A stretch of DNA of 64,000 bases from Acidobacteriota bacterium (GTDB lineage Bacteria; Acidobacteriota; Polarisedimenticolia; J045), in contig JAUZRX010000044.1 of assembly GCA_030949985.1 (NCBI GenBank), forward strand, positions 62,001-126,000, in the 5' to 3' direction. Of the stretch, positions 2,766 to 64,000 are shown one piece after another. Position numbers and translations under genes: made by a program. A model generated the notes under the pieces. It did no database searches, had not been told where the DNA came from, and saw only the letters and a program-made list of their open reading frames with translations. The stretch's first letter is position 1, and each line of letters opens with the position of its first letter.

Positions 2766-3973
2766 GGGGATCCTCCTCGATACTCGAGGGCCAGCAGCGA
2801 GATGTCGTCTCGCGGGGGTCGGCGGCCGCCGAAGACCGTCAGCTCGCGCATCACCCGCCGGCACAACTCCTCGAGGCCTCGATCCGCTCCGTCCCGCAGC
2901 AGGGCCACCAGGCGATCCTCTCCGAAAAGCTCGCCGCCGGTGGAGCAGTGCTCGACGATCCCGTCGGTGTAGAAGTACACGCGATCGCCGGCCGCCAGTC
3001 GCGTGCGGCCCTCGTCGAAGGCCAGGAAAGCGCCCATGCCGATCAGCGGCCCCCCCTCCTCGAGACGCTCGACACTGCCATCGACGCGCAACACGATGGG
3101 TGGCGGATGAGCCGCCGATGAGTAGGCCAACTCGCCGGTACGGGTATCGAGGACCGCGTAGCAGATGGTAAACGGCCGGTCGAAACGCTCGAGGGGATAT
3201 TCCTGGTCCAGGCGGGTGAGCACGGCGGCGGGCGGGGCAATGGGTGAATCACCCCGCCGGGCCTGGCTCGAAACCGTGATCCCCAGGTGAGGCGCCAGGC
3301 TCTGCGCCACCGATACCGTCACCATCGCCGACGGCACTCCGTGACCGGTGACATCCACGATGTACAGCCCCCAACGGTGCTCATCGAGCTGCAACAAGTT
3401 GAAGATGTCGCCGCCCACGCCCTCGCAGGGGAGGAAGGTCCAGGCCGTCTCGACGCCGGGGGGGTGCAGATCTCCGGCAGGCAGCAGGGCCTGCTGAATC
3501 TGCGCGGCGGCCTTGAGGTCTTCTTCGAGACGCTTTTGCTTCTCGAGCAGGTCGTTGTTCAGGCGCAGCAGGTCGTCGTTGACGGCCTGCAGGGAACTGT
3601 TGAGCTGCCCGATCTGCAAGTGGGTACGAATCCGCGCCAGGACTTCCCGGGTGCAGTAGGGCTTGTGGATGAAGTCGGATCCCCCCAGCTCGAGTCCCCT
3701 GGCGATCTCTTCCTTGGCCTCGATGGCCGAGACGAAGATCACAGGAATGTCGGAGGTCTCCAGATGGGTCCTCAACGTCGAGCAGACGTCGTAGCCATCC
3801 CGATCCGGCAGGCAGATGTCGAGCAGGATCAGGTCGGGCTTCCTCGAGGCGGCCGTTTCGAGGGCCTGGCCGCCCGTGGCCGCTTCGAAAACCGGAAAAC
3901 CCTCCCGTTCGAGAATGCCCGCCAGCAGGCGACGGTCGGTGGGATGGTCGTCGACGACCAGGATGCCGTTCAT
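2762..3973 (-). CDS. Response regulator with PP2C-type (SpoIIE/RsbU) phosphatase output
   Basis: 403 residues. An N-terminal receiver domain (1-120) has acidic 'VVDD' at 6-9, phosphoacceptor Asp52 in 'LILLDICLPDRDG' and Lys in 'FIHKPY'. A leucine-rich coiled coil (about 125-165, 'NNDLLEKQKRLEEDLKAAA') leads to a PP2C/SpoIIE domain (about 175-400) with the metal-binding aspartate motifs 'GGDIFN', 'DVTGHGVPSAM', 'YTDGIVEH' and 'RDDISLLAL'. By family it dephosphorylates the phosphorylated STAS antagonist when its receiver is activated. Its ATG overlaps the DUF4301 stop (ATGA) and its stop overlaps the RsbW-like start, so the three genes form one coupled unit. No sensor kinase for the receiver is adjacent. 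Confidence 0.93.
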   Translation of the reverse strand: MNGILVVDDHPTDRRLLAGILEREGFPVFEAATGGQALETAASRKPDLILLDICLPDRDGYDVCSTLRTHLETSDIPVIFVSAIEAKEEIARGLELGGSDFIHKPYCTREVLARIRTHLQIGQLNSSLQAVNDDLLRLNNDLLEKQKRLEEDLKAAAQIQQALLPAGDLHPPGVETAWTFLPCEGVGGDIFNLLQLDEHRWGLYIVDVTGHGVPSAMVTVSVAQSLAPHLGITVSSQARRGDSPIAPPAAVLTRLDQEYPLERFDRPFTICYAVLDTRTGELAYSSAAHPPPIVLRVDGSVERLEEGGPLIGMGAFLAFDEGRTRLAAGDRVYFYTDGIVEHCSTGGELFGEDRLVALLRDGADRGLEELCRRVMRELTVFGGRRPPRDDISLLALEYRGGSP

Positions 3974-53767: not shown

Positions 53768-55843
53768 ATGGCCCAACAGCGTGTTGGCCGCGCCCTCGTC
53801 GTTCTCGCGGCCGCGGCCCTGGCTTTCCCCCACGGATCGGCGGCCGATCCGCGGCCGATGACCCCCGAAGACGTGGCCCGCCTGCAATCGGTCACGGCGG
53901 CCAGGATCAGCCCCCGCGGGACGGAAATTGCAGTGGTCACCTCCGTCCCGCGTCTCCCCGGCCGCGACGAAGACGGCCGTCCCTACCAGCGGGTGAACCT
54001 GATCTCCTTCGAGGGCTCGACATCACGCGCCTTCATCACCGGCAAGCAGGCCGTCTCTTCCCTGGAATGGTGCACCGAGCGCGTCCTCTGCTTTCTGGCC
54101 AAGCGGGGCGACGACGAGCACCAGGCGCTGTACGCCCTGCCCGCCGATGGTGGTGAAGCGCGGCGCGTCGTCGGCCTCGACTCCGACATCGACGCCTTCG
54201 CCCTGGCCCCGGATGGCAAGAGCCTGGCCCTCGTCGCCGTCGAGGCCGAAAGCGAAGAACGTCGCGAGCTGAAAGAAAAGGGCTTCAAGGTCGAGGTCTT
54301 CGAAGAAGACACGCCGGCCCGCAAGCTCTACCTGGCGGCACTCCCCCACGGCTTCGACCAGGCCGCCGAGCCGGCCCGGGTCGTCGAAGCGCTCGACGGC
54401 CACCCCTGGTCCGTTTCCTGGTCGCCCGACAGCCGCTGGATGGTGGTCGATGTCTCTCCCACTCCCCTGACCGACGATCGCTACATGTACCGGCGCTTGC
54501 GGGTCATCGACGCCAAAGAAAAGAAAGTCGTCGCCCGCATCGACAATCCCGGCAAGCTCGGCGCGTTTCGCGTCTCCCCCGACTCCCGCTTCGTGGTGCT
54601 GATCTCCGGCGCCGATCTGCACGACCCCGGCGCGGGACGACTGCTCTTCGCCCCCCTGACCGGGGGCACGCCCGAGGATCTGCTGCCCGGCCTGGCGGAA
54701 GGCGACGTGGTGGACTTCCGTTTCGTGCCGGAATCCGGCGAAGTCGTCTACCTGGCCCACTTCGGCACCACGTCCAAGGTGGCCACCATCCCCCTCGACG
54801 GGGGCCCCGGCCGGACGCTCTTCGAAGCGCAGACCCCCGTCTTCCGCAGCCTCGACACCAACCGTTCGGGCACGCGCCTGGCCCTGGTGGGCGAGTCTCC
54901 CCACCACCCCGCCGAAGCCTTCTCGTGGACTCCGGGCAGCCCGCCCCGGCGCATCACCGACAGCAATCCCTGGCTCGCGCAAATCGCCTTGGGCCGCCAG
55001 GAGATCTTCCGCTGGAAAGCGGAGGACGGCATGCCGATCGAGGGACTGCTGATCCATCCCCTCGAGCGGCGGGACGGCGGCCGTGTTCCGCTGATCGTCG
55101 TCGCTCACGGAGGCCCGGAATCCCACTGGGTCCACGGCTGGCTGACGCGCTACTCGAGCCCCGGGCAGGTGGCCGCGGGGCGGGGCTATGCGGTGTTCTA
55201 TCCCAACTACCGGGGCTCGACGGGACGCGGTGTCGCCTTCACCAAGGCCGACCAGGGCGACGGAGGTGGCAAGGAGTTCGACGACATCCTCGCCGGCATC
55301 GACTCCCTGGTCGCGCGGGGCCTGGTGGACGCCGAACGAGTCGGCATCACGGGAGGCTCCTACGGCGGATTCTTCACGGCATGGGCCTGCACCCGTCACA
55401 GCGCGCGCTTCCGTGCCGGCGTGATGTTCGTGGGAATCTCCAACCAGCTTTCCAAGGCCGGCACTACCGACATTCCCAAGGAAATGGAGCTGGTGCACTG
55501 GCGCACCACCCCTTACGAAAACCTCGACCTCCTGCTCGACCGCTCGCCGCTGCTGCACGTGAATCGGGCCGAGACGCCCCTGCTGATCCTGGCCGGCAAG
55601 AAAGATCGGCGGGTGGATCCGGGGCAGTCCAAGGAACTCTATCGGGCCCTGCGGCACAAGGGCGGCGTTCCCGTGCGCCTGGTGTTCTACGAAGAGGAAG
55701 GCCACGGCAATGCCCGCGCGGCGGCCCGCTACGATTACTCCCTGCGCATGATGCGCTGGCTCGATCGTTTTCTGCTGGAAGAGGGCGGGGGCAAACCGCC
55801 TTACGCTCTCGACTACCCTTTGCTGGAAGAAGAGACAGAGTGA
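53768..55843 (+). CDS. Exported S9-family (prolyl oligopeptidase) peptidase
   Basis: 691 residues. Signal peptide to about residue 26 ('ALVVLAAAALAFPHGSA'). A WD40-like beta-propeller (about 40-380: 'PWSVSWSPDSRWMVVDVSPT', 'FRVSPDSRFVVLISGADL') shields a C-terminal alpha/beta-hydrolase with the nucleophile Ser in 'GITGGSYGGFFTAWAC', Asp in 'KKDRRVDPGQSKEL' and His in 'EEEGHGNARA', the full triad. The family cuts oligopeptides, often of the acylaminoacyl or dipeptidyl type. AGGAG lies eight bases before ATG 53768. Its 3' end overlaps the convergent glk-like gene by 31 bases. Confidence 0.93.
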   Translation: MAQQRVGRALVVLAAAALAFPHGSAADPRPMTPEDVARLQSVTAARISPRGTEIAVVTSVPRLPGRDEDGRPYQRVNLISFEGSTSRAFITGKQAVSSLEWCTERVLCFLAKRGDDEHQALYALPADGGEARRVVGLDSDIDAFALAPDGKSLALVAVEAESEERRELKEKGFKVEVFEEDTPARKLYLAALPHGFDQAAEPARVVEALDGHPWSVSWSPDSRWMVVDVSPTPLTDDRYMYRRLRVIDAKEKKVVARIDNPGKLGAFRVSPDSRFVVLISGADLHDPGAGRLLFAPLTGGTPEDLLPGLAEGDVVDFRFVPESGEVVYLAHFGTTSKVATIPLDGGPGRTLFEAQTPVFRSLDTNRSGTRLALVGESPHHPAEAFSWTPGSPPRRITDSNPWLAQIALGRQEIFRWKAEDGMPIEGLLIHPLERRDGGRVPLIVVAHGGPESHWVHGWLTRYSSPGQVAAGRGYAVFYPNYRGSTGRGVAFTKADQGDGGGKEFDDILAGIDSLVARGLVDAERVGITGGSYGGFFTAWACTRHSARFRAGVMFVGISNQLSKAGTTDIPKEMELVHWRTTPYENLDLLLDRSPLLHVNRAETPLLILAGKKDRRVDPGQSKELYRALRHKGGVPVRLVFYEEEGHGNARAAARYDYSLRMMRWLDRFLLEEGGGKPPYALDYPLLEEETE

Positions 55844-56814
55844 TCCAGCCGGCTGCGCGGCACCAGGGCGGCGCCGCGCAGCCCCAGCAGATCGTCTGGA
55901 ACCAGGCGCAGGGGAACCTCCGCCAGCAAGTCCCGGTAGCGTCCCTTGGCGCGGAAAGCCTCGACCAGCGCCGTGGTGTCCAAGGCCCGGCCCAGACGCT
56001 TGAGCAGGCCTCCTGCGAGATAGACCCCTCCCAGCGCACAGGCGGCGAGGGCCAGGTTACCGGCCTGGGCGCCGAGCAGACGGCTGAGCCAGCCCACGGC
56101 CCGGCGGCTGAGTTCGCAGTCCCCGTCCCGCGCCCGCTGGACGATGGCCGCGACGGGGGAAGGCCCGTCGAGCCCGGCAGGGGTGGGCACTCTCTGCTCG
56201 GCGGCGAGAAAGCGCACCAGGCGCACCAGGCCGGGCCCTGAAACAAAGCGCTCCCAGCTCACGTGCCCCCACTCGTTCCGGGCCTCGCGCCACAGGGCCG
56301 CATCGCGGTCGTCCGCCGGCCCGAAGTCGACGTGGGAACCTTCGGAAGCCAGCGGCCACCAGCCCTCCGGAGTGCGAGCGATGACGGCCTGGCCGAGTCC
56401 CGTGCCCAGGGTGAGCAGCACGCGGGCGGCCCCCGCCTCCGGCCGACCGGCCTGCAGGGTGTCGCACAGGCCTCGCGCTTCGGCCGCGGCCACGCCCCAC
56501 GCGGCGACCTCCACGTCGTTGAGCAGCGTGACGGGGCAGCCGAGCCGCTCCGCCAGGCGATCTTGCTCGACACGCCAGGGCAGGTTGGTCGTCTGCACGG
56601 CTCCCCGGCGCACAGGCCCCGGCACTCCCAGCACCGCCTCGGTGAAGTCTTCAACGCGATCGCGTGTGTAGCGGACCAGCAGGGGCTCGAGGGAAGGCGC
56701 CTCGGCGGACGCGAAGACTTCCACCGCTTCGACCCCGGACGCGGCTTCCGCGGTCGCCGCCCGGGCCGTTCCGAGGCGCGTGTGAGTCGCTCCGATGTCT
56801 CCCACCAGGCGCAT
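55813..56814 (-). CDS. glk: Glucokinase (Glk family)
   Basis: 333 residues, PF02685-type hexokinase. 'LVGDIGATHTRLGTARA' is the phosphate-1 loop, 'LLNDVEVAAWG' the catalytic Asp region, 'LTLGTGLGQAVIA' the phosphate-2 loop, and 'ASEGSHVDFGPADD' the sugar-binding stretch of Glk. ROK-type zinc motif (CxCG) is absent, so it is not a ROK kinase. It phosphorylates glucose to glucose-6-phosphate. ATG 56814 shares a base with the stop of the clc gene (TGATG). It is the last gene of the pabB-pabC-clc-glk run. Confidence 0.9.
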   Translation of the reverse strand: MRLVGDIGATHTRLGTARAATAEAASGVEAVEVFASAEAPSLEPLLVRYTRDRVEDFTEAVLGVPGPVRRGAVQTTNLPWRVEQDRLAERLGCPVTLLNDVEVAAWGVAAAEARGLCDTLQAGRPEAGAARVLLTLGTGLGQAVIARTPEGWWPLASEGSHVDFGPADDRDAALWREARNEWGHVSWERFVSGPGLVRLVRFLAAEQRVPTPAGLDGPSPVAAIVQRARDGDCELSRRAVGWLSRLLGAQAGNLALAACALGGVYLAGGLLKRLGRALDTTALVEAFRAKGRYRDLLAEVPLRLVPDDLLGLRGAALVPRSRLDHSVSSSSKG

Positions 56815-58637
56815 CAGAGAGCCTCTTCCTCGTGGGCCCTGAGGATCTCCCGGTCATAGGCGGCGACGACGGTCTGCCGGCTGATCACGCCGACGGGAAG
56901 GTCCGGATCGCGGGGATCGGTCACGACCAGTTCGCCGACTCCGGCGCGAATCAGCCGGCGCACGGCCACGTCGAGGCTGGCTTCCAGCGAAACCGTTTCA
57001 GGGGTGACGGCAAGATCCTGGGCCACGAGCAACGGGGCCAGTTCCTGCTGGGCCAGGGCCGCGCGCAGCTGGGCGTCGGTGACCCACCCCACCATGCGTC
57101 CGTCTCCACCGAGTACCGGGAAGGAGACGCCCCCGGTGCGGGAGAAACGGCGCACGATCTCCGGGTAAGGCGTTCCCGGCTCCAGCAGGCGATCACGCAT
57201 CTGGTCGAGGGGTACCATGAACTCGCGGATCTTCAGCCGCCGCAACACCTCGAGGGCCATCTGTCCACTGTGGTGGGGAGAATCCGCCCGGGAGTCCACC
57301 TGCTGCTCGTAGAGGCTCGTTCGCTTGGCCAGGGCGAAGGCCAGGGCGCAAGTCCAGAAGGTGGGGACCAGAAGATGGTAATTCCCGGTCATTTCCGAGA
57401 CGATGATCACCGAAGAAAGGGGGGTGTTGGCCGCCGCCGAGAAAAAGGCCGCCATGCCCACCAAAGCGTAGCTCTCGGGATGGGGCGCCAGCCAGGGCGC
57501 CACCTGGTGGATACCCAGGCCCACCGCACCGCCGAGGGCGCCACCGATCACCACCGAGGGGCCGAAGACACCCCCTGAACCTCCCGACGCGATGGAGGTG
57601 GAGGTGGTCACCATCCTCGTCAAAGCGGCGGCGAGCAGAAAGCCCCATCCCACCTTGCCGTCCAGGGCACCCTGAACGATACCGTAGCCGGTGGCCAGGG
57701 CGTCGGGGAAGACCAGTCCCACGGCGCCGGTGAGCAGCCCTCCGATAGCGGGGGTGATCCACAGCGGCAGCCGTGTCGCGCGAAAAAGGTCGCGGGCGCC
57801 GTAGAAGATCCGCGGGAAGAGGCCTCCGGACACGGCCATCGCCAGCGCCAGGATCAGGTAGCCCCCCAGTTCCACGGGGTTGCGGAATTGCAGGTTTCCC
57901 GTGTGAAACAGGGGTTCCCAGCCGAAATGCAACGCCGCCGTGGAGTAGGCGATGATGGAGGCCACGGTGGCGGGGACGATCACCTCGAACTCGAAATCGA
58001 TCTCCCGGTAGAGCACCTCGGCGGCGAAGAGAGCGCCCGCGAGGGGAGCGTGGAAGATCGCGCCGATGCCGGCCCCCATGCCCGCGGCCACCAGCAGGGT
58101 GCGGTCCTTCTGGGACAGCTTGAACCCCAGCGACAGGGTGGATGCGATGCCGGCGCCGATCTGGGCGATGGGGCCTTCGCGCCCGCCCGACCCACCCGAC
58201 CCGATGGTGATCGCCGAGGCGACGGCCTTGACGAAAGGCACGCGAGCGCGAATCCGTCCGCCCTTACGATGATAGGCCTCGATCACCGAGTCGGTTCCGT
58301 GGCCCTCGGCCTCGGGGGCGAACAGGTAGACGATGGCTCCCGAAACGATGCCGCCGAGAGCGGGCAGGAAGAAGAGCAACCAGGGGCGGAAGGCGCCGGT
58401 GCCGGGAGGCAGAACCTTGACCTCGCCGGCCGCCTCCTGCGGGCGGTAGCCGGCGAGGCGATCGAGCAGGCCCCAGGAAACCACCTCCAGCATCCAGTGG
58501 AACGCGATGGCACCGACCCCCGCCACGACACCCACCAGGCCCGCCAGGAACAGCAGGCGACCGAAGCGCCGGGTGCGCTCACCGGGAATCAGGGGCTCAA
58601 GAATGCGCCGCCGCATAAAGGGTGCCAGGTCGTTCAT
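56814..58637 (-). CDS. CLC-family chloride channel/antiporter with CBS domains
   Basis: 607 residues. CLC membrane core (about 25-440) with selectivity motifs 'GSGGSGGREGPIAQIGAG' (GREGP form), 'GGSGGVFGPSVVIGGALGG' (GxFxP) and 'NTPLSSVIIVSEMTG'. The last 130 residues form a CBS pair ('IREFMVPLDQM', 'GGVSFPVLGGDGRMVGWVTD', 'GELVVTDPRDPDLPVGVISR'). It conducts or exchanges chloride, likely proton-coupled. ATG 58637 is chosen with GAGGTGAGGA about eight bases upstream; TTG 58643 is possible. It is 10 bases after pabC. Confidence 0.92.
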   Translation of the reverse strand: MNDLAPFMRRRILEPLIPGERTRRFGRLLFLAGLVGVVAGVGAIAFHWMLEVVSWGLLDRLAGYRPQEAAGEVKVLPPGTGAFRPWLLFFLPALGGIVSGAIVYLFAPEAEGHGTDSVIEAYHRKGGRIRARVPFVKAVASAITIGSGGSGGREGPIAQIGAGIASTLSLGFKLSQKDRTLLVAAGMGAGIGAIFHAPLAGALFAAEVLYREIDFEFEVIVPATVASIIAYSTAALHFGWEPLFHTGNLQFRNPVELGGYLILALAMAVSGGLFPRIFYGARDLFRATRLPLWITPAIGGLLTGAVGLVFPDALATGYGIVQGALDGKVGWGFLLAAALTRMVTTSTSIASGGSGGVFGPSVVIGGALGGAVGLGIHQVAPWLAPHPESYALVGMAAFFSAAANTPLSSVIIVSEMTGNYHLLVPTFWTCALAFALAKRTSLYEQQVDSRADSPHHSGQMALEVLRRLKIREFMVPLDQMRDRLLEPGTPYPEIVRRFSRTGGVSFPVLGGDGRMVGWVTDAQLRAALAQQELAPLLVAQDLAVTPETVSLEASLDVAVRRLIRAGVGELVVTDPRDPDLPVGVISRQTVVAAYDREILRAHEEEAL

Positions 58638-58647
58638 GGGCAAATCC

Positions 58648-59463
58648 TCACCTCGTGCCGCATTCCTCTCTCACTTTCTCGTGGTAGGCGGCGAGCAGGG
58701 AACGGGCGACCGGACCGGGACCGGGCAGGTCGTGCTCGCCGATGCGTACGATGGGAACGATCTCCATCATGGTACTGGTGACGAAAACCTCTTGCGCGGC
58801 GCACAGCCGGGAAAGGCGCAGCCGACGCTCGGCCACGGGCCATCCTTGCCGCCGAGCCAGGTCGAGGACGACCTTCCGGGTCACACCCGGCAGGATGCCC
58901 TGCGCGAGGGGCGGAGTGAGCAGGCGGCCTTTTTCCACCATGAAGACGTTGCATCGGGTGCCCTCGAGGACATCCCCCCGCAGGCCCAGGACGAGGGCAT
59001 CGAGAACCCCCTCCTCTTCCGCCTCCCAGCGCGTCTTCATGTTCTCCAGGTAGTTGAGGGTCTTGTGACCGGCCAGGGGCGCGGCGGGATCCCTGCGGAA
59101 GGGAGCGATCGCCAGGGCCGCCCCCTGCCGGTAGACCTTGCGGGGCAGAGCCTTCCATCGTTGGGTGACCACGACCAGGTGCCCGCCACCGGTCAGGGTG
59201 ATTCGGGTGTAGCCCCCCGAAAGCCCGTTGCGCACGAAGAGGCGATGCACCACCCCATCGAGGGGAGGCAGCCGGGCCCGAATGCCGAAGTGCTCGGCGG
59301 AACGCCGGAGCCGATCGAGGTGCGCATCGAGCTGAAACGCCCGTTGGTTGTAGCCCCGAGCCACCTCGAAAACGCCGACACCCCACGCCAGAGCGGGATC
59401 CGTAGCCGGGATCCTGGCTCGTTTTTCGTCCATGATGCGGCCGTCGAGATAGAGCCAGGCCAT
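58648..59463 (-). CDS. pabC: Class IV aminotransferase, probable 4-amino-4-deoxychorismate lyase (PabC)
   Basis: 271 residues, fold-type IV PLP enzyme. The PLP lysine is in 'GHKTLNYLENMKTRWEA', and 'TDPALAWGVGVFEVAR', 'VLEGTRCNVFMVEKG' and 'QGILPGVTRKVVLDLA' follow the family. Branched-chain and D-amino-acid aminotransferases share this fold; the assignment to PabC (p-aminobenzoate for folate) rests mainly on pabB ending 2 bases before it starts. ATG 59463 gives the usual N terminus. Confidence 0.82.
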   Translation of the reverse strand: MAWLYLDGRIMDEKRARIPATDPALAWGVGVFEVARGYNQRAFQLDAHLDRLRRSAEHFGIRARLPPLDGVVHRLFVRNGLSGGYTRITLTGGGHLVVVTQRWKALPRKVYRQGAALAIAPFRRDPAAPLAGHKTLNYLENMKTRWEAEEEGVLDALVLGLRGDVLEGTRCNVFMVEKGRLLTPPLAQGILPGVTRKVVLDLARRQGWPVAERRLRLSRLCAAQEVFVTSTMMEIVPIVRIGEHDLPGPGPVARSLLAAYHEKVREECGTR

Positions 59464-59465
59464 TG

Positions 59466-60800
59466 TCAGACCTCCAGGTCCAGCCCCAGGGCACCGCCCA
59501 GGGCGCGAGCCTTGACCAGGGTTTCCCGGTACTCCCCTTCGGGGTCGGAATCCCAGACTACGGCCCCGCCGACCTGGAAGGTAACCCAACCCTCATCGAA
59601 GTGCATGGTGCGGATGGCGACACTCAGCCGGAGTCGGTCGTTTTCCGGCCGCGACGCAGGCTCGATCATCCCGATCGCCCCGGTGAACACTCCCCGCCGG
59701 GTGGGCTCCAGCTCGTCGATGATTTCCATCGCCCGGATCTTCGGCGCCCCCGTCACCGAACCACCCGGGAAGGTCGCCCGCAGCAGGTCGACAAAATCGC
59801 GGTCCGCCTCCAGCCGACCCTCCACCACCGAGGCCAGGTGCCAGACCGTCGGATGCGCCTCGAGGCGGCAGCGCTCGCGAACGACCACGCTCCCCGGCGC
59901 GCAGACCCGACCCAGGTCGTTGCGCTCCAGGTCGACGATCATCGTCAGCTCGGCGGCATCCTTGGCGCTGGCCAGCAGCGCCTCCTTCAGCCGCCGGTCT
60001 TCCGCCTCGTCGCGCCCCCTGGGCCGGGTGCCCTTGATCGGCGTGGTGCGCACCACTCTCCCCTCGAGACGGAGGAACTCCTCGGGCGACGCGGAAATCA
60101 CCGCCCGCCGGCCGAAGCCCAGCAGGGCGGAGTAAGGCGCGGGAGACAGCCGCCGAAGACGAGAGTAGAGCTCATGGGGGTCGGCCGGCCCCCTTGCCGC
60201 CATGCGCTGGGAGAGGTTGACCTGGTAGATGTCCCCCCGGGCGATGGCGGCGCGAACCTGCTCGACAGCCTGCAGGTACCCCTCGCGGGTGAAATTGGCC
60301 GCCGGCCGAGAAGGCGGCCGGGACGGGTCGAGCGCCGTGGCCTCGACCCGCCGGCCCCCGGCACCATCCCCGCGGCGGCGCAGGCCTCCCCCGTGGTGAT
60401 CCCATTCGATCCAACGATCGTAGAAGGCGAAGACCAGCTCCGGGAAGCCCTGGTCGTCCACCGCTCGCCGGGGCAGCCTCTCGATGCGACCGCCCAAGTC
60501 GTATCCCAGGTAGCCGACGGCCATGACATCCCGACCCCGAACTTCGTCACAGAGCCTTCGCAACAGCCCGAAACCCTCGGGAGCCGCTTCTTCGATCTCA
60601 CCACCGCGGATGATGCGGGCGCGATCCGTCGTCACCTCCAGCAGCAGAAAAGGATCGGCCCCGGCCAGGGAACGCGTCGAGGCCGGGTGAGTCGCCAGGG
60701 CACTGTCGAGCAGAAAGGGAAAGGCGCCCCGGCGCAAACGCCGCCAGCAGAGCCGGAACTCCCCGTCGACGGGACGGGACTCATGCTCGACCAGGCTCAT
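59466..60800 (-). CDS. pabB: Aminodeoxychorismate synthase component I (PabB)
   Basis: 444 residues, chorismate-binding fold. It converts chorismate and ammonia to aminodeoxychorismate. The Lys of 'TTPIKGTRPRGRDEAEDRRL' (PIKGT) is specific to PabB; anthranilate synthase has PIAGT. Other blocks: 'DIYQVNLSQRM', 'IVDLERNDLGRVCAPGSV', 'TFPGGSVTGAPKIRAMEIID', 'VFTGAIGMI'. It pairs with pabC downstream. A glutamine amidotransferase (PabA) partner is not in the window. A 69-base gap separates it from the TonB-receptor gene upstream. Confidence 0.94.
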   Translation of the reverse strand: MSLVEHESRPVDGEFRLCWRRLRRGAFPFLLDSALATHPASTRSLAGADPFLLLEVTTDRARIIRGGEIEEAAPEGFGLLRRLCDEVRGRDVMAVGYLGYDLGGRIERLPRRAVDDQGFPELVFAFYDRWIEWDHHGGGLRRRGDGAGGRRVEATALDPSRPPSRPAANFTREGYLQAVEQVRAAIARGDIYQVNLSQRMAARGPADPHELYSRLRRLSPAPYSALLGFGRRAVISASPEEFLRLEGRVVRTTPIKGTRPRGRDEAEDRRLKEALLASAKDAAELTMIVDLERNDLGRVCAPGSVVVRERCRLEAHPTVWHLASVVEGRLEADRDFVDLLRATFPGGSVTGAPKIRAMEIIDELEPTRRGVFTGAIGMIEPASRPENDRLRLSVAIRTMHFDEGWVTFQVGGAVVWDSDPEGEYRETLVKARALGGALGLDLEV

Positions 60801-60869: not shown

Positions 60870-62933
60870 CTAGTCGAGCCGCCAGCGGAGGCTGGCCCGC
60901 CAGGAGCGCCCGGTGAGCGGGCCCCAGTTGTAGTCGGTGGTGGGGTCGCCCAGGTCGTTTTGAATCCGGTTGCCCAGGTTGTCGCCGGCGGCATTGAGAC
61001 TGAGCCCACGACCCAGGGGGATGTCGACGGCCAGGCCGACGATCCAGAAACCGGGAGTGGGCCGCAATTCGGGCAGGAGAATGTTGGACCCCGTCAGGGG
61101 ATCGTCCGCGAACTGCTGAATCAGCATCCCGCCGGTGTAGTTGGCCTGCCCCGAGAGCGCCAGCCCCTTCGGAAAGGAGTAGGAAATGGAGAACGAACCG
61201 GTGCGGGTGGGCCGGTAGGGCACCCGATCCATGGGAATCGGCACCTCGGCCAGCAGCACGAGGGTCTCGCGGACCAGGGCCACGGGATCTCTCCCGCTGG
61301 TGTTGTGGAACGAGAGCCAGCCCACGGAACCATCGAGGCTGAGGCCCCTCAGCGGCTTCCATGTCAGGGCCAGCTCGGCGGTCTTGGAGGTGGCCTCCGG
61401 CACGTTGATGTTGGCGTAGGTCTGGATCCAGGACTGGCTGCGCCCCACCGCCCGGAGGATATGGTTGTCGAAGTCGGTGCGGGCCAGGTAGACGCTGGCC
61501 TTGAACTCCGGCGAGGGCTGATAGGTGGTCTCCAGCGCCCAGGTCATGGCGTCCTCGGCCTGCACCAGGATTCTCCCGTCCTCCAGAACGTTGCGCTGCA
61601 GCTGCTGGCCGCAGCAAACCTCGGAAAAGATCGAACGGGGCACCCGGAAAGTCCTGCCGGCCAGGGCCCGGAGGGTCCAGCCTCGGGCGGGAAAGAAGCG
61701 CACCGTCACTCGGGGCGAGGTCTGGGCGCCAAAGATCTCGTCGTCGTCGCGGCGCAGACCCGCTTCCAGGTCCCAGCGGGAGGACAGGCTCCAGTAGGCA
61801 CTGACGAAGCCGGACCAGGTCTTGAGGTACTCGGCTTCCACCGGCGTGATCGAGTCCTTGACCTGGGCCACCGCCTTGTCGTGGACCGCCTCGACGCCCG
61901 CCGACACCCGCATGGAAAGACCGATCGGCTGATCGAACTGCAGCCGTCCCCAACGCTGCCGCTGGAAGACACCCAGTCGCCGTTCCATCTCGTTCGAGAA
62001 GCCGGGCACCGAGACGGCTGTGAACTGGCTGAGCACATCCTGGTGACGCGTCGCCTCGAGAAGCTTGAGGGAGAGGGTGCCCCCCTCTTTCATCTGCCAG
62101 CGCCATCCGAGACGATATTCCCGCCGGCCGATCAGGGCATCTTCCCGGGTCCAGGCCGCATGGCGCTCGGGGTCGAAGACATAAGAAACGATATCGAAGG
62201 CGCCCCGCCCCTCGAGACTATCTTCGGAGATCCACGATGCTCCCGCCTGCACCTCGTGGTCGCGCCCGAGCTGCAGGCGCAACTCCCCTTCCGCGTACTC
62301 GCGTTCGAGGGCGCTGACATCGTGCCAGCCGTCGCCGTCGTCATCGACGGGGTCCACGCGGGTCTTGCCCAGGGTCACCCGACCGGCGAGCCAGCGGGTG
62401 AGATTTCCCGAAGCGCGGGCGACCCCGGTCTGCAGCCCGTAGGATCCCGTCGTGCCGGTCAGCTCGAAGCGAGGCAGCTCCGCGGGTCGGCTGCCTTCGA
62501 GTTGCACCACCCCCCCCGCCGCGGGGGAAGGCGCCCGGGCCTCACCGGGCCCCTTGGTGACCTGGGCCTCGGCCACCGTATCCGGGGGCAGGATGCTCAG
62601 CACGAAGGAGGTCGCCATGCCGCCGAAAAGGGGATAACCGTCCCAGAGTATCGGCGCCAGCTCCTGGTTGAGGCCCCCGACCTGGATGTTGGCCGAGTTG
62701 CAATGGACGCACATGGTCTGGATCCGCATACCCTCCTTGCCCTGGAGCGCATCGGTCACGCTCCCCTCGGCACCGTCCACCTGCACCCGGCCGTCGGCGG
62801 GTGGCGCCGGGGCATCCTCCCCGGCCCAAGAAGAAGCGCCGGGCCACAGCAGGACGATCGAGGCGAGGACACAGGAGAAGAGCGGCGCTGAACGCCGCTC
62901 TCGGTGAAAAAGGCCGGAAAAAATGCTGATCAC
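60870..62933 (-). CDS. TonB-dependent outer-membrane receptor with CxxC in the plug
   Basis: 687 residues. Signal peptide 'APLFSCVLASIVLLWPGASS', cleavage near SWA-GED (37-38). The plug is recognisable from 'VGGLNQELAPILWDGYPLFG', 'FVLSILPPDTVAEAQVTKGP' and 'AGGVVQLE', and the rest is a 22-strand type barrel ending 'GRSWRASLRWRLD' with terminal hydrophobic pattern. Two cysteines form CxxC at 75 and 78 ('IQTMCVHCNSANIQ') at the plug's exposed loop; a further pair 'EVCCGQQ' occurs in an extracellular region. GTG 62933 overlaps the stop of the upstream thioredoxin-fold gene. The substrate is unknown; thiol chemistry or metal binding is suggested. Confidence 0.9.
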   Translation of the reverse strand: MISIFSGLFHRERRSAPLFSCVLASIVLLWPGASSWAGEDAPAPPADGRVQVDGAEGSVTDALQGKEGMRIQTMCVHCNSANIQVGGLNQELAPILWDGYPLFGGMATSFVLSILPPDTVAEAQVTKGPGEARAPSPAAGGVVQLEGSRPAELPRFELTGTTGSYGLQTGVARASGNLTRWLAGRVTLGKTRVDPVDDDGDGWHDVSALEREYAEGELRLQLGRDHEVQAGASWISEDSLEGRGAFDIVSYVFDPERHAAWTREDALIGRREYRLGWRWQMKEGGTLSLKLLEATRHQDVLSQFTAVSVPGFSNEMERRLGVFQRQRWGRLQFDQPIGLSMRVSAGVEAVHDKAVAQVKDSITPVEAEYLKTWSGFVSAYWSLSSRWDLEAGLRRDDDEIFGAQTSPRVTVRFFPARGWTLRALAGRTFRVPRSIFSEVCCGQQLQRNVLEDGRILVQAEDAMTWALETTYQPSPEFKASVYLARTDFDNHILRAVGRSQSWIQTYANINVPEATSKTAELALTWKPLRGLSLDGSVGWLSFHNTSGRDPVALVRETLVLLAEVPIPMDRVPYRPTRTGSFSISYSFPKGLALSGQANYTGGMLIQQFADDPLTGSNILLPELRPTPGFWIVGLAVDIPLGRGLSLNAAGDNLGNRIQNDLGDPTTDYNWGPLTGRSWRASLRWRLD

Positions 62934-64000
62934 TCGCAGGTCTCCGGATTGATCTCGGGAAGAATCGTGGCTTCCACGTCTGAAGCGAACTGGGCGCCAC
63001 TGGCGTACCTGTAGACCACATTGCCCTGATCGACGTAGAAATTCTGGGGGGCTCCGCCGGAGATGTTCCACTGTACGGTGGCATCGCCCTTGCCGTCGCC
63101 GTCGTGGTCCTCGTCACAGAGGATCGGCGTGGTGGAATTGTAGTTGTTCGCCCAGGTCTCGATGCGGCTGGCGCACTCCCCCGGCGGAACCACCGTCCAG
63201 TAGCTGTAAGCCAGGGTGAAGATCGAAACGAAGGTAAAGTCCCGGTGCCCGTACTTTTCGTCGTTGATCGCCTCGTCCTGGGCTTCCACCGTGCACCAGA
63301 AGCAGTTCTCCGCCGTCAGGGCCAGCTTGTAGACGATGCCCCGGAAGTCTTCGAGGGAAAGTTCCTGCATGTAGGTCGGCGAGTGGGGGTTGTAGTCCGT
63401 CAGCTTGAGCACGTCGTTGGTGCCGGGGATCTTGAAGTCGAAGGCACACTGGCCTTCCAGGTTGCCCCAACCGATGACATCGCAGTAATCCGTTGGCCCC
63501 GGGCGGGCGGCGCCATCGCTGGCGAGCCCGGTGCTGCCCTCGAGGTTGTCGCCCTGGGCCGATACCAGGAAATAGCGATTGCCCGCGTCGGGGGTGATGG
63601 TCGCATTCAGGCGGGCGGGTCCCGCGGGATTGCCGTCGGTGGTCAACTTGGAGGTGTGATCGTAGCTGCCGCCGATGGGCAGGCTGCCCTCCCAGACCTG
63701 GTAGGCCGCGCTGTGCTGCCCGCCGTTGCGCTTGGCCCGACCGGCGTCGAGATCTCCCAGGTTCTCCCAGCCCAGGGTCAAGTCGGAACCGGATTTTTCC
63801 ACCGTCAACTGGAAGGGGGATCCGGGAGCGGAAACCTCCCGGGGACCGGGAGTATCGCGCCAGATCCGCCAGATGCCCGGATTCGCACCCTCTGCGGCGG
63901 CGTAGAGCTGGCCATCGTCACCCAGGGCCAGCGCGCTGACGTTCTGCGGGCAGAGGGTATCGGGCACACCGTCCCGATCGCCGTCGGGATCGTAGAAAGC
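62930..64000 (-). CDS. Secreted protein with C-terminal thioredoxin-fold domain (CFWC), 5' truncated
   Basis: The frame is open to base 64000, so the start is beyond the window. The visible part begins with a Ca-binding-like 'DPDGDRDGVPD' repeat and 'ALALGDDGQLYAAAEG' (propeller-like), continues with a fibronectin-like domain ('SGSDLTLGWENLGD', 'RYFLVSAQGDNLEGSTGLAS'), and ends in a thioredoxin fold: 'VLKLTDYN', CFWC at codons 63293-63304 ('TAENCFWCTVEAQDEA'), 'TFVSIFTLAYSYW', and the final 'GGAPQNFYVDQGNVVYRYAS'. It is likely an extracellular or periplasmic redox protein. Its stop overlaps the GTG of the CxxC receptor, so both are made together. Confidence 0.82.
   Translation of the reverse strand, partial: AFYDPDGDRDGVPDTLCPQNVSALALGDDGQLYAAAEGANPGIWRIWRDTPGPREVSAPGSPFQLTVEKSGSDLTLGWENLGDLDAGRAKRNGGQHSAAYQVWEGSLPIGGSYDHTSKLTTDGNPAGPARLNATITPDAGNRYFLVSAQGDNLEGSTGLASDGAARPGPTDYCDVIGWGNLEGQCAFDFKIPGTNDVLKLTDYNPHSPTYMQELSLEDFRGIVYKLALTAENCFWCTVEAQDEAINDEKYGHRDFTFVSIFTLAYSYWTVVPPGECASRIETWANNYNSTTPILCDEDHDGDGKGDATVQWNISGGAPQNFYVDQGNVVYRYASGAQFASDVEATILPEINPETCE

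Follow-up and report, generated by a model that had tools for sequence, protein, structure and literature searches.

The closest described counterpart of the locus analysed here is found in Stenotrophomonas maltophilia, in which TonB-dependent receptors carrying a CQNC motif in the plug are syntenic with a periplasmic thioredoxin of the CAPC type, reduction of the CQNC cysteines by this thioredoxin being suggested by the authors (PMC13217887, 2026). Our subject is a gene pair within a 64,000-nucleotide stretch of DNA from an Acidobacteriota bacterium (the window, G000:C44:62001-126000, part of a 3.7-Mb draft genome), in which a TonB-dependent receptor gene with the plug motif CVHC overlaps the gene of a secreted protein fusing a glucose/sorbosone dehydrogenase (GSDH) propeller to a CFWC thioredoxin fold. 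As in the Stenotrophomonas system, termed TBDR-pTFP, a receptor with a plug CxxC adjoins a periplasmic CxxC thioredoxin in consistent synteny (PMC13217887). In TBDR-pTFP, however, the receptor motif is CQNC, the CAPC thioredoxin is a separate protein encoded downstream of the receptor and the pair is under MntR control, whereas the window receptor combines CVHC with a CC pair in the barrel, its CFWC thioredoxin is fused to a GSDH propeller and encoded upstream, no metal regulator is adjacent, and relatives display putative selenocysteine (Sec) forms. The original prediction, made from the window alone, had recognised no described system of this design, a claim overtaken by the simpler receptor-thioredoxin pair of Stenotrophomonas (PMC13217887).

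The partner protein resembles soluble sugar dehydrogenases dependent on pyrroloquinoline quinone (PQQ) in its propeller fold, as judged by sequence (PF07995), but differs from these GSDH proteins in lacking the dehydrogenase histidine and in its fused thioredoxin. ResA acts in the oxidising cell envelope, where it holds the CxxC of a client in the reduced state. The partner shares with the ResA/TlpA/CcmG reductases the fold, the CxxC and a glutamate three residues past the second cysteine, but is fused to a propeller and matches them weakly in sequence, with no cytochrome c context seen at the loci. In the copper receptor OprC, a plug CxxxM and barrel HxM residues are joined in a metal site (PMC8610252); the window type has CxxC and CC instead of these motifs, and OprC appears without a thioredoxin partner in the accessible part of that article. 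Selenoprotein TonB receptors (NF049944 to NF049947; PMC12013277, PMC13188914) are likewise outer-membrane receptors with Cys/Sec motifs, but there Sec lies in the receptor, whereas here it would lie in the partner of relatives. Relative to the open-access articles that were searched, the new features are the fusion to a propeller, a CC pair in the barrel, the exchange of Cys for Sec, the receptor-thioredoxin fusion and an adjacency test run with controls.

A receptor with conserved cysteines and its propeller-thioredoxin partner

Both genes lie on the minus strand, with the following features in window coordinates.

60870..62933, minus strand: TonB-dependent receptor gene, 687 aa, GTG start (open reading frame; Pfam; AlphaFold2 model)
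62508..62768, minus strand: plug domain, residues 56-142 (Pfam match)
62700..62711, minus strand: plug CVHC, with MCVHC at 62700-62714 (sequence; both Cys invariant in 19/19 homologues)
61611..61616, minus strand: barrel CC within EVCCG (first Cys in 19/19, second in 18/19)
62930..62933, minus strand: GTGA, in which the TGA of the upstream gene (62930-62932) overlaps the receptor GTG (62931-62933) (sequence)
62930..64000, minus strand: in-window part of the upstream gene, residues 325-680 of a 680-aa GSDH-propeller-thioredoxin protein (open reading frame; GSDH PF07995)
63014..63376, minus strand: ResA-like thioredoxin-fold domain, residues 533-653 (Pfam AhpC-TSA match; model fold match)
63293..63304, minus strand: CFWC active site (Cys at both positions, or a Sec codon at the first, in 18/18 homologues)

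The four elements named in the original prediction (plug MCVHC, barrel CC, CFWC and GTGA overlap) were all confirmed in the sequence. The upstream gene crosses the window edge, its whole extent being L008:6930-8972, or 62930-64972 in window numbering. Junction overlaps of the GTGA, TAATG or TGATG type are seen repeatedly in the branch to which the window belongs, and short gaps are found in other branches.

The receptor exceeds the Pfam cut-offs for both the plug (32.2 bits, cut-off 23.9) and the barrel (95.5 bits) and is thus a TonB-dependent receptor. An alignment of 19 window-type receptors out of 17 genomes revealed that C52, C55 and N56 of the plug and C417 of the barrel are invariant, while C418 is kept in 18 and lost only in L047, the most distant row. 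The plug motif, CVHC in the window, is CTHC or CTNC among relatives, and the exact CQNC was found in none of the 19. The AlphaFold2 model, built with 15 sequences (pLDDT 83.6, pTM 0.86), is that of a TonB receptor nearest to FepA/PfeA. Sec in the window-type receptors themselves was considered and rejected, the frames used in the alignment being open and free of TGA; the NCBIfam selenoprotein receptor models NF049944 to NF049947 left the window receptor unmatched at E up to 1 and matched its relatives weakly.

The partner consists of an N-terminal signal sequence (recognised by eye), a GSDH propeller (PF07995, 110.8 bits) and, at the C-terminus, a thioredoxin fold whose AhpC-TSA match of 19.7 bits stays below the Pfam cut-off of 26. 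The large secreted protein foreseen in the original prediction is thereby upheld in its motif and C-terminal fold, but the thioredoxin proved to be one domain of a propeller fusion. A model of the thioredoxin half (356 aa) reached a pLDDT of 73 overall, with values of some 80-93 across the greater part of the thioredoxin domain, and its best Foldseek match was ResA (E 1e-8, TM to target up to 0.90). Both active-site cysteines are kept in 18/18 homologues when four in-frame TGA codons are counted as Sec, although the motif itself varies (CFWC, CYYC, CYWC, CGPC, CAPC and four forms with TGA first); three residues after the second cysteine, Glu is found in 13 and Gln in five. The invariance of plug, barrel and thioredoxin cysteines among homologues indicates that the motifs are not due to chance.

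Alignment of the propellers to two solved relatives located the column of the dehydrogenase histidine. It is occupied by R in the window protein and by R, N or D in all 16 partner propellers covering that stretch, whereas the five ordinary GSDH proteins compared from this class all have H. The partner propeller is thus unlikely to be a PQQ sugar dehydrogenase and, its histidine being lost, probably serves as a binding scaffold. Homologous to a dehydrogenase but devoid of its histidine, the propeller speaks against annotation of this gene as a glucose or sorbosone dehydrogenase. The gene pqqC was detected in 0/16 genomes, a weak argument as control genomes were silent as well.

Plug CxxC receptors and thioredoxins are found together

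Among 41 genomes of the class, a window-type receptor, scoring more than 100 bits per piece as against less than 50 for the others of the class, was present in 16, and the GSDH-thioredoxin protein, full-length or cut by a contig end, was present in the identical 16. The plug CxxC and the partner CxxC or UxxC thus occur together in every genome of the class with either protein, bearing out the co-conservation on which the original prediction was to be judged. The two genes are neighbours in 14 of these 16 genomes, and in G025 both lie at contig ends.

Adjacency was then compared across the phylum: a thioredoxin was encoded within ~300 bp of 29/36 CxxC receptors as against 0/21 receptors lacking the motif, the controls being hand-picked and non-random (weak class-scan matches and the window genome) and the thioredoxin profiles having been built from partners of the window-type and CQNC-type groups, which they may favour. 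Around these 21 receptors, which comprise 18 of 21 control regions and second receptors in L046, L091 and L108, no thioredoxin was detected within 500 bp, the nearest being 1.9 kb off on the opposite strand; control regions L190, L191 and L205 were dropped for want of a receptor at threshold. Profile searches of the window-type loci placed a same-strand thioredoxin domain within ~300 bp of 18/19 receptors, that of L037 being merely a contig-end fragment without its CxxC. For CQNC-type receptors of the phylum, the thioredoxin was fused or within ~100 bp in 11 of 17. The L029 receptor displays a further CxxC (CFRCG) upstream, in a read-through N-terminus, its plug itself carrying CVHC. A second, DsbD-gamma-like thioredoxin lies near 8/19 window-type loci, seven of these assignments resting on Pfam. 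The genes called in the surroundings of the window locus include no such protein.

A scan of genome contigs yielded 14 loci, whose titles name Acidobacteria/Acidobacteriota or candidate taxa presumably of this phylum, except for one that reads only 'bacterium'. All window-type loci except L047 fall within one class of this phylum. Plasmid records gave no match to the window receptor. Searched with a CQNC receptor, they yielded 23 records, and among eight examined, six are Bacteroidota loci with a CxxC plug; the receptors of the Cupriavidus (L110) and Leptospira (L111) records have a plug without CxxC and no thioredoxin beside them. In Parabacteroides and Bacteroides, the CQNC receptor follows a protein of 117-126 aa that Pfam leaves unmatched (L112:6317-6670, L113:6392-6772), again with no adjacent thioredoxin.

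The genome of L035 (G020) contains a receptor fused to its thioredoxin: L102:8375-10822 is a single open frame of 815 aa encoding in succession a thioredoxin (PF00085, 30.6 bits), a plug (82.8 bits, CQNC) and a barrel (128.4 bits). The thioredoxin partner of divergent receptors is found in three architectures, propeller-fused, separate downstream and receptor-fused, and CQNC relatives have the thioredoxin without an adjacent GSDH protein. Four of the 17 CQNC-type loci lie near FeoB (L090, L105, L109) or a DtxR-type regulator (L090, L101), the FeoB of L105 and that of L109 each being divided between two frames. As these genes were found near CQNC-type relatives only, they were rejected as a clue to the window locus itself.

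In a quick tree of receptors other than that of Stenotrophomonas, from which the motif columns had been removed, 42 CxxC receptors fell on one side of a branch and 23 receptors without CxxC on the other; with an SH-aLRT of only 78, this tentatively suggests a single origin of the plug CxxC. Eighteen window-type receptors formed one branch with a support of 100, while L047 grouped with L091 outside it.

Probable selenocysteine codons in partner homologues

The first active-site codon of the thioredoxin is TGA in four partner homologues, L039 (UGGC), L040 (UAPC), L042 (UGSC) and L138 (UWAC). Identity among the four is 39-61% after the TGA as compared to 40-47% before it (120 columns), and this continued homology indicates that the downstream stretch is under constraint at the protein level. 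A tRNA-Sec scored above cut-off in 16/16 genomes, that of the window included (70.9 bits), ARAGORN reported a tca anticodon in all four loci scanned, and SelB was above cut-off in each of six genomes searched. We infer that these codons are read as Sec. A 4-bp GGCC hairpin with GU in the loop starts 17 bases past the TGA in all four and is absent from 13 Cys forms; its energy is not distinctive and double-sided covariation was not found, so that it is suggestive at most as a Sec insertion sequence (SECIS), and RNA energy was rejected as proof of one. Three of the four TGA loci share one branch of the receptor tree with L044. The contig of L138 carries no receptor; L138:4389-6524 (G010:C106), at the contig end, is the third GSDH-thioredoxin gene of G010.

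Catalogued Sec forms include stand-alone redoxin and TlpA-type proteins as well as TonB receptors (PMC13188914; PMC12013277). A Sec thioredoxin fused to a GSDH propeller is not among the forms seen in the accessible parts of these two articles, the words 'glucose' and 'sorbosone' being absent from the main text of the review (PMC13188914). A separate candidate case of Sec in a receptor was met in L185 (G118:C5), where the frame ending at 3456 encodes an Acidobacteriota TonB receptor akin to NF049945 (247 bits, cut-off 825) with an in-frame TGA in a barrel GCU. By eye, this GCU follows a conserved segment resembling that before EVCCG in the window, and the neighbours are a selD-like gene and an ABC-transporter binding protein.

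A possible redox coupling of receptor and thioredoxin

The simplest reading, given the likeness to ResA, is that the thioredoxin domain holds the receptor thiols reduced. We accordingly favour, with roughly even confidence, an importer with working plug and barrel thiols that is co-made with its own periplasmic reductase, which would keep these thiols reduced or reset them. The plug-loop CxxC, together with the barrel-loop CC in the window subfamily, would provide the working thiols of a TonB-dependent importer, most likely ligating a metal ion or metal complex, and the ResA/TlpA-type thioredoxin carried by the histidine-less GSDH-type propeller would be the dedicated reductase, acting on the receptor cysteines before barrel insertion or whenever the plug is pulled into the periplasm. 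The role of the receptor as client, the timing of its reduction and the metallic nature of the ligand are thus conjectural parts of this proposal. We count in its favour the presence of both proteins in the same 16/41 genomes, the adjacency contrast (29/36 vs 0/21), the L102 fusion, the ResA match, the TGA forms of the first active-site cysteine, which argue for catalysis and not for a structural disulfide, with their tRNA-Sec and SelB, the lost histidine, FeoB or DtxR near four CQNC loci and the MntR-linked pair of Stenotrophomonas (PMC13217887).

Several observations weigh against this proposal. Both receptor cysteine sites are low-confidence loops in the model (residues 53-55 and 416-419), and no metal gene was seen by eye beside the window locus. 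In G003 the propeller protein is encoded apart from any receptor, seven of the 36 CxxC receptors of the phylum have no neighbouring thioredoxin, and none was found beside the six Bacteroidota CxxC receptors of the plasmid-record loci. Because such receptors exist, the coupling is not obligatory across the CxxC receptor family; the idea of the original prediction that the secreted protein sets the redox state of the receptor or its ligand survives as a receptor-thioredoxin redox coupling, the best-supported reading, without holding family-wide. The chief difficulty is one of access. In the usual plug topology, the ligand side is a likelier place for the plug loop than the periplasmic one, which favours one of the two orientations that the original prediction had allowed for the plug thiols; the loop should then face outward, where a periplasmic thioredoxin would hardly reach it. 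Reduction prior to insertion, or with the plug displaced, would solve this difficulty.

The same co-conservation of both motifs would be expected if the thioredoxin acted on the imported ligand, by reducing a disulfide or an oxidised metal in the cargo or by taking a metal from the receptor as a chaperone, with the propeller binding the organic part of the cargo. This possibility, which we regard as real but rather unlikely, accounts for the periplasmic location and the propeller fusion, the periplasm being the site of the first step after import; the receptor-thioredoxin fusion and the propeller-free thioredoxin of the CQNC type point instead to the receptor as the common factor, although a shared ligand would fit them too. 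The plug cysteines might otherwise form a structural disulfide, installed during receptor assembly by the thioredoxin as an oxidase or isomerase, since the CxxC of secreted proteins is usually oxidised and the partner is translated just ahead of the receptor. We consider this improbable: the reductase ResA has the nearest fold, receptors lacking the plug CxxC do not need such a helper to fold, and a Sec codon as first residue of the active site is a feature more of reductases.

Import of PQQ for the GSDH-type protein, with the thioredoxin tail as an accessory, was suggested by PqqU/YncD, the PDB entry that the receptor profile matched best (101 bits), and by the PQQ binding of GSDH relatives. 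This match covers the barrel, however, and barely exceeds those to CirA (95 bits) and PfeA (90 bits), the one to OprC being weak (32 bits); the PqqU model NF041535 left the window receptor unmatched at E up to 1, and CQNC relatives have the thioredoxin with no GSDH protein adjacent. With the dehydrogenase histidine absent from 16/16 propellers, PQQ scavenging was rejected and we deem it very improbable. No more credible is an incidental neighbourhood of two cysteine-bearing envelope proteins in one lineage; it draws on the near confinement of window-type loci to one class, but is largely refuted by the three partner architectures among divergent receptors and by the absence of thioredoxins beside all 21 non-CxxC receptors.

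As to the cargo of the proposed reductase-served importer, FeoB and DtxR near CQNC relatives and the MntR-linked Stenotrophomonas pair (PMC13217887) may point to Fe or Mn, while the four cysteines might point to a softer metal, so that the soft-metal ligand of the original prediction is no more than a possibility. A more tentative extension, which we hold to be doubtful, is a redox-gated importer: the cargo would bind a thiolate site between plug and barrel, every cycle would leave this site oxidised or occupied, and the periplasmic (seleno)thioredoxin, kept close to the receptor by the dead propeller, would reset or unload it through the displaced plug. If so, outer-membrane transport would be coupled to the flow of thiol electrons in addition to TonB. 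The proposed receptor-thioredoxin coupling would in itself add a redox partner to a type of import usually described as driven by TonB alone. It would also open a way to the ligand of a large and uncharacterised group of plug-CxxC receptors in Acidobacteriota, Bacteroidota and Stenotrophomonas (PMC13217887), and the Cys/Sec exchange in the partner makes the redox idea testable.

Neighbouring genes

On the far side of the receptor (53768-60800), we recognised by eye a prolyl-oligopeptidase-like enzyme, a glucokinase-like protein, a ClC-type channel and a pabB/pabC-like pair, with no hint of metal handling. Beyond the window, L008:14538-16328 encodes a 596-aa protein whose thrombospondin type 3 repeats match PF02412 (209 bits) in seven stretches.

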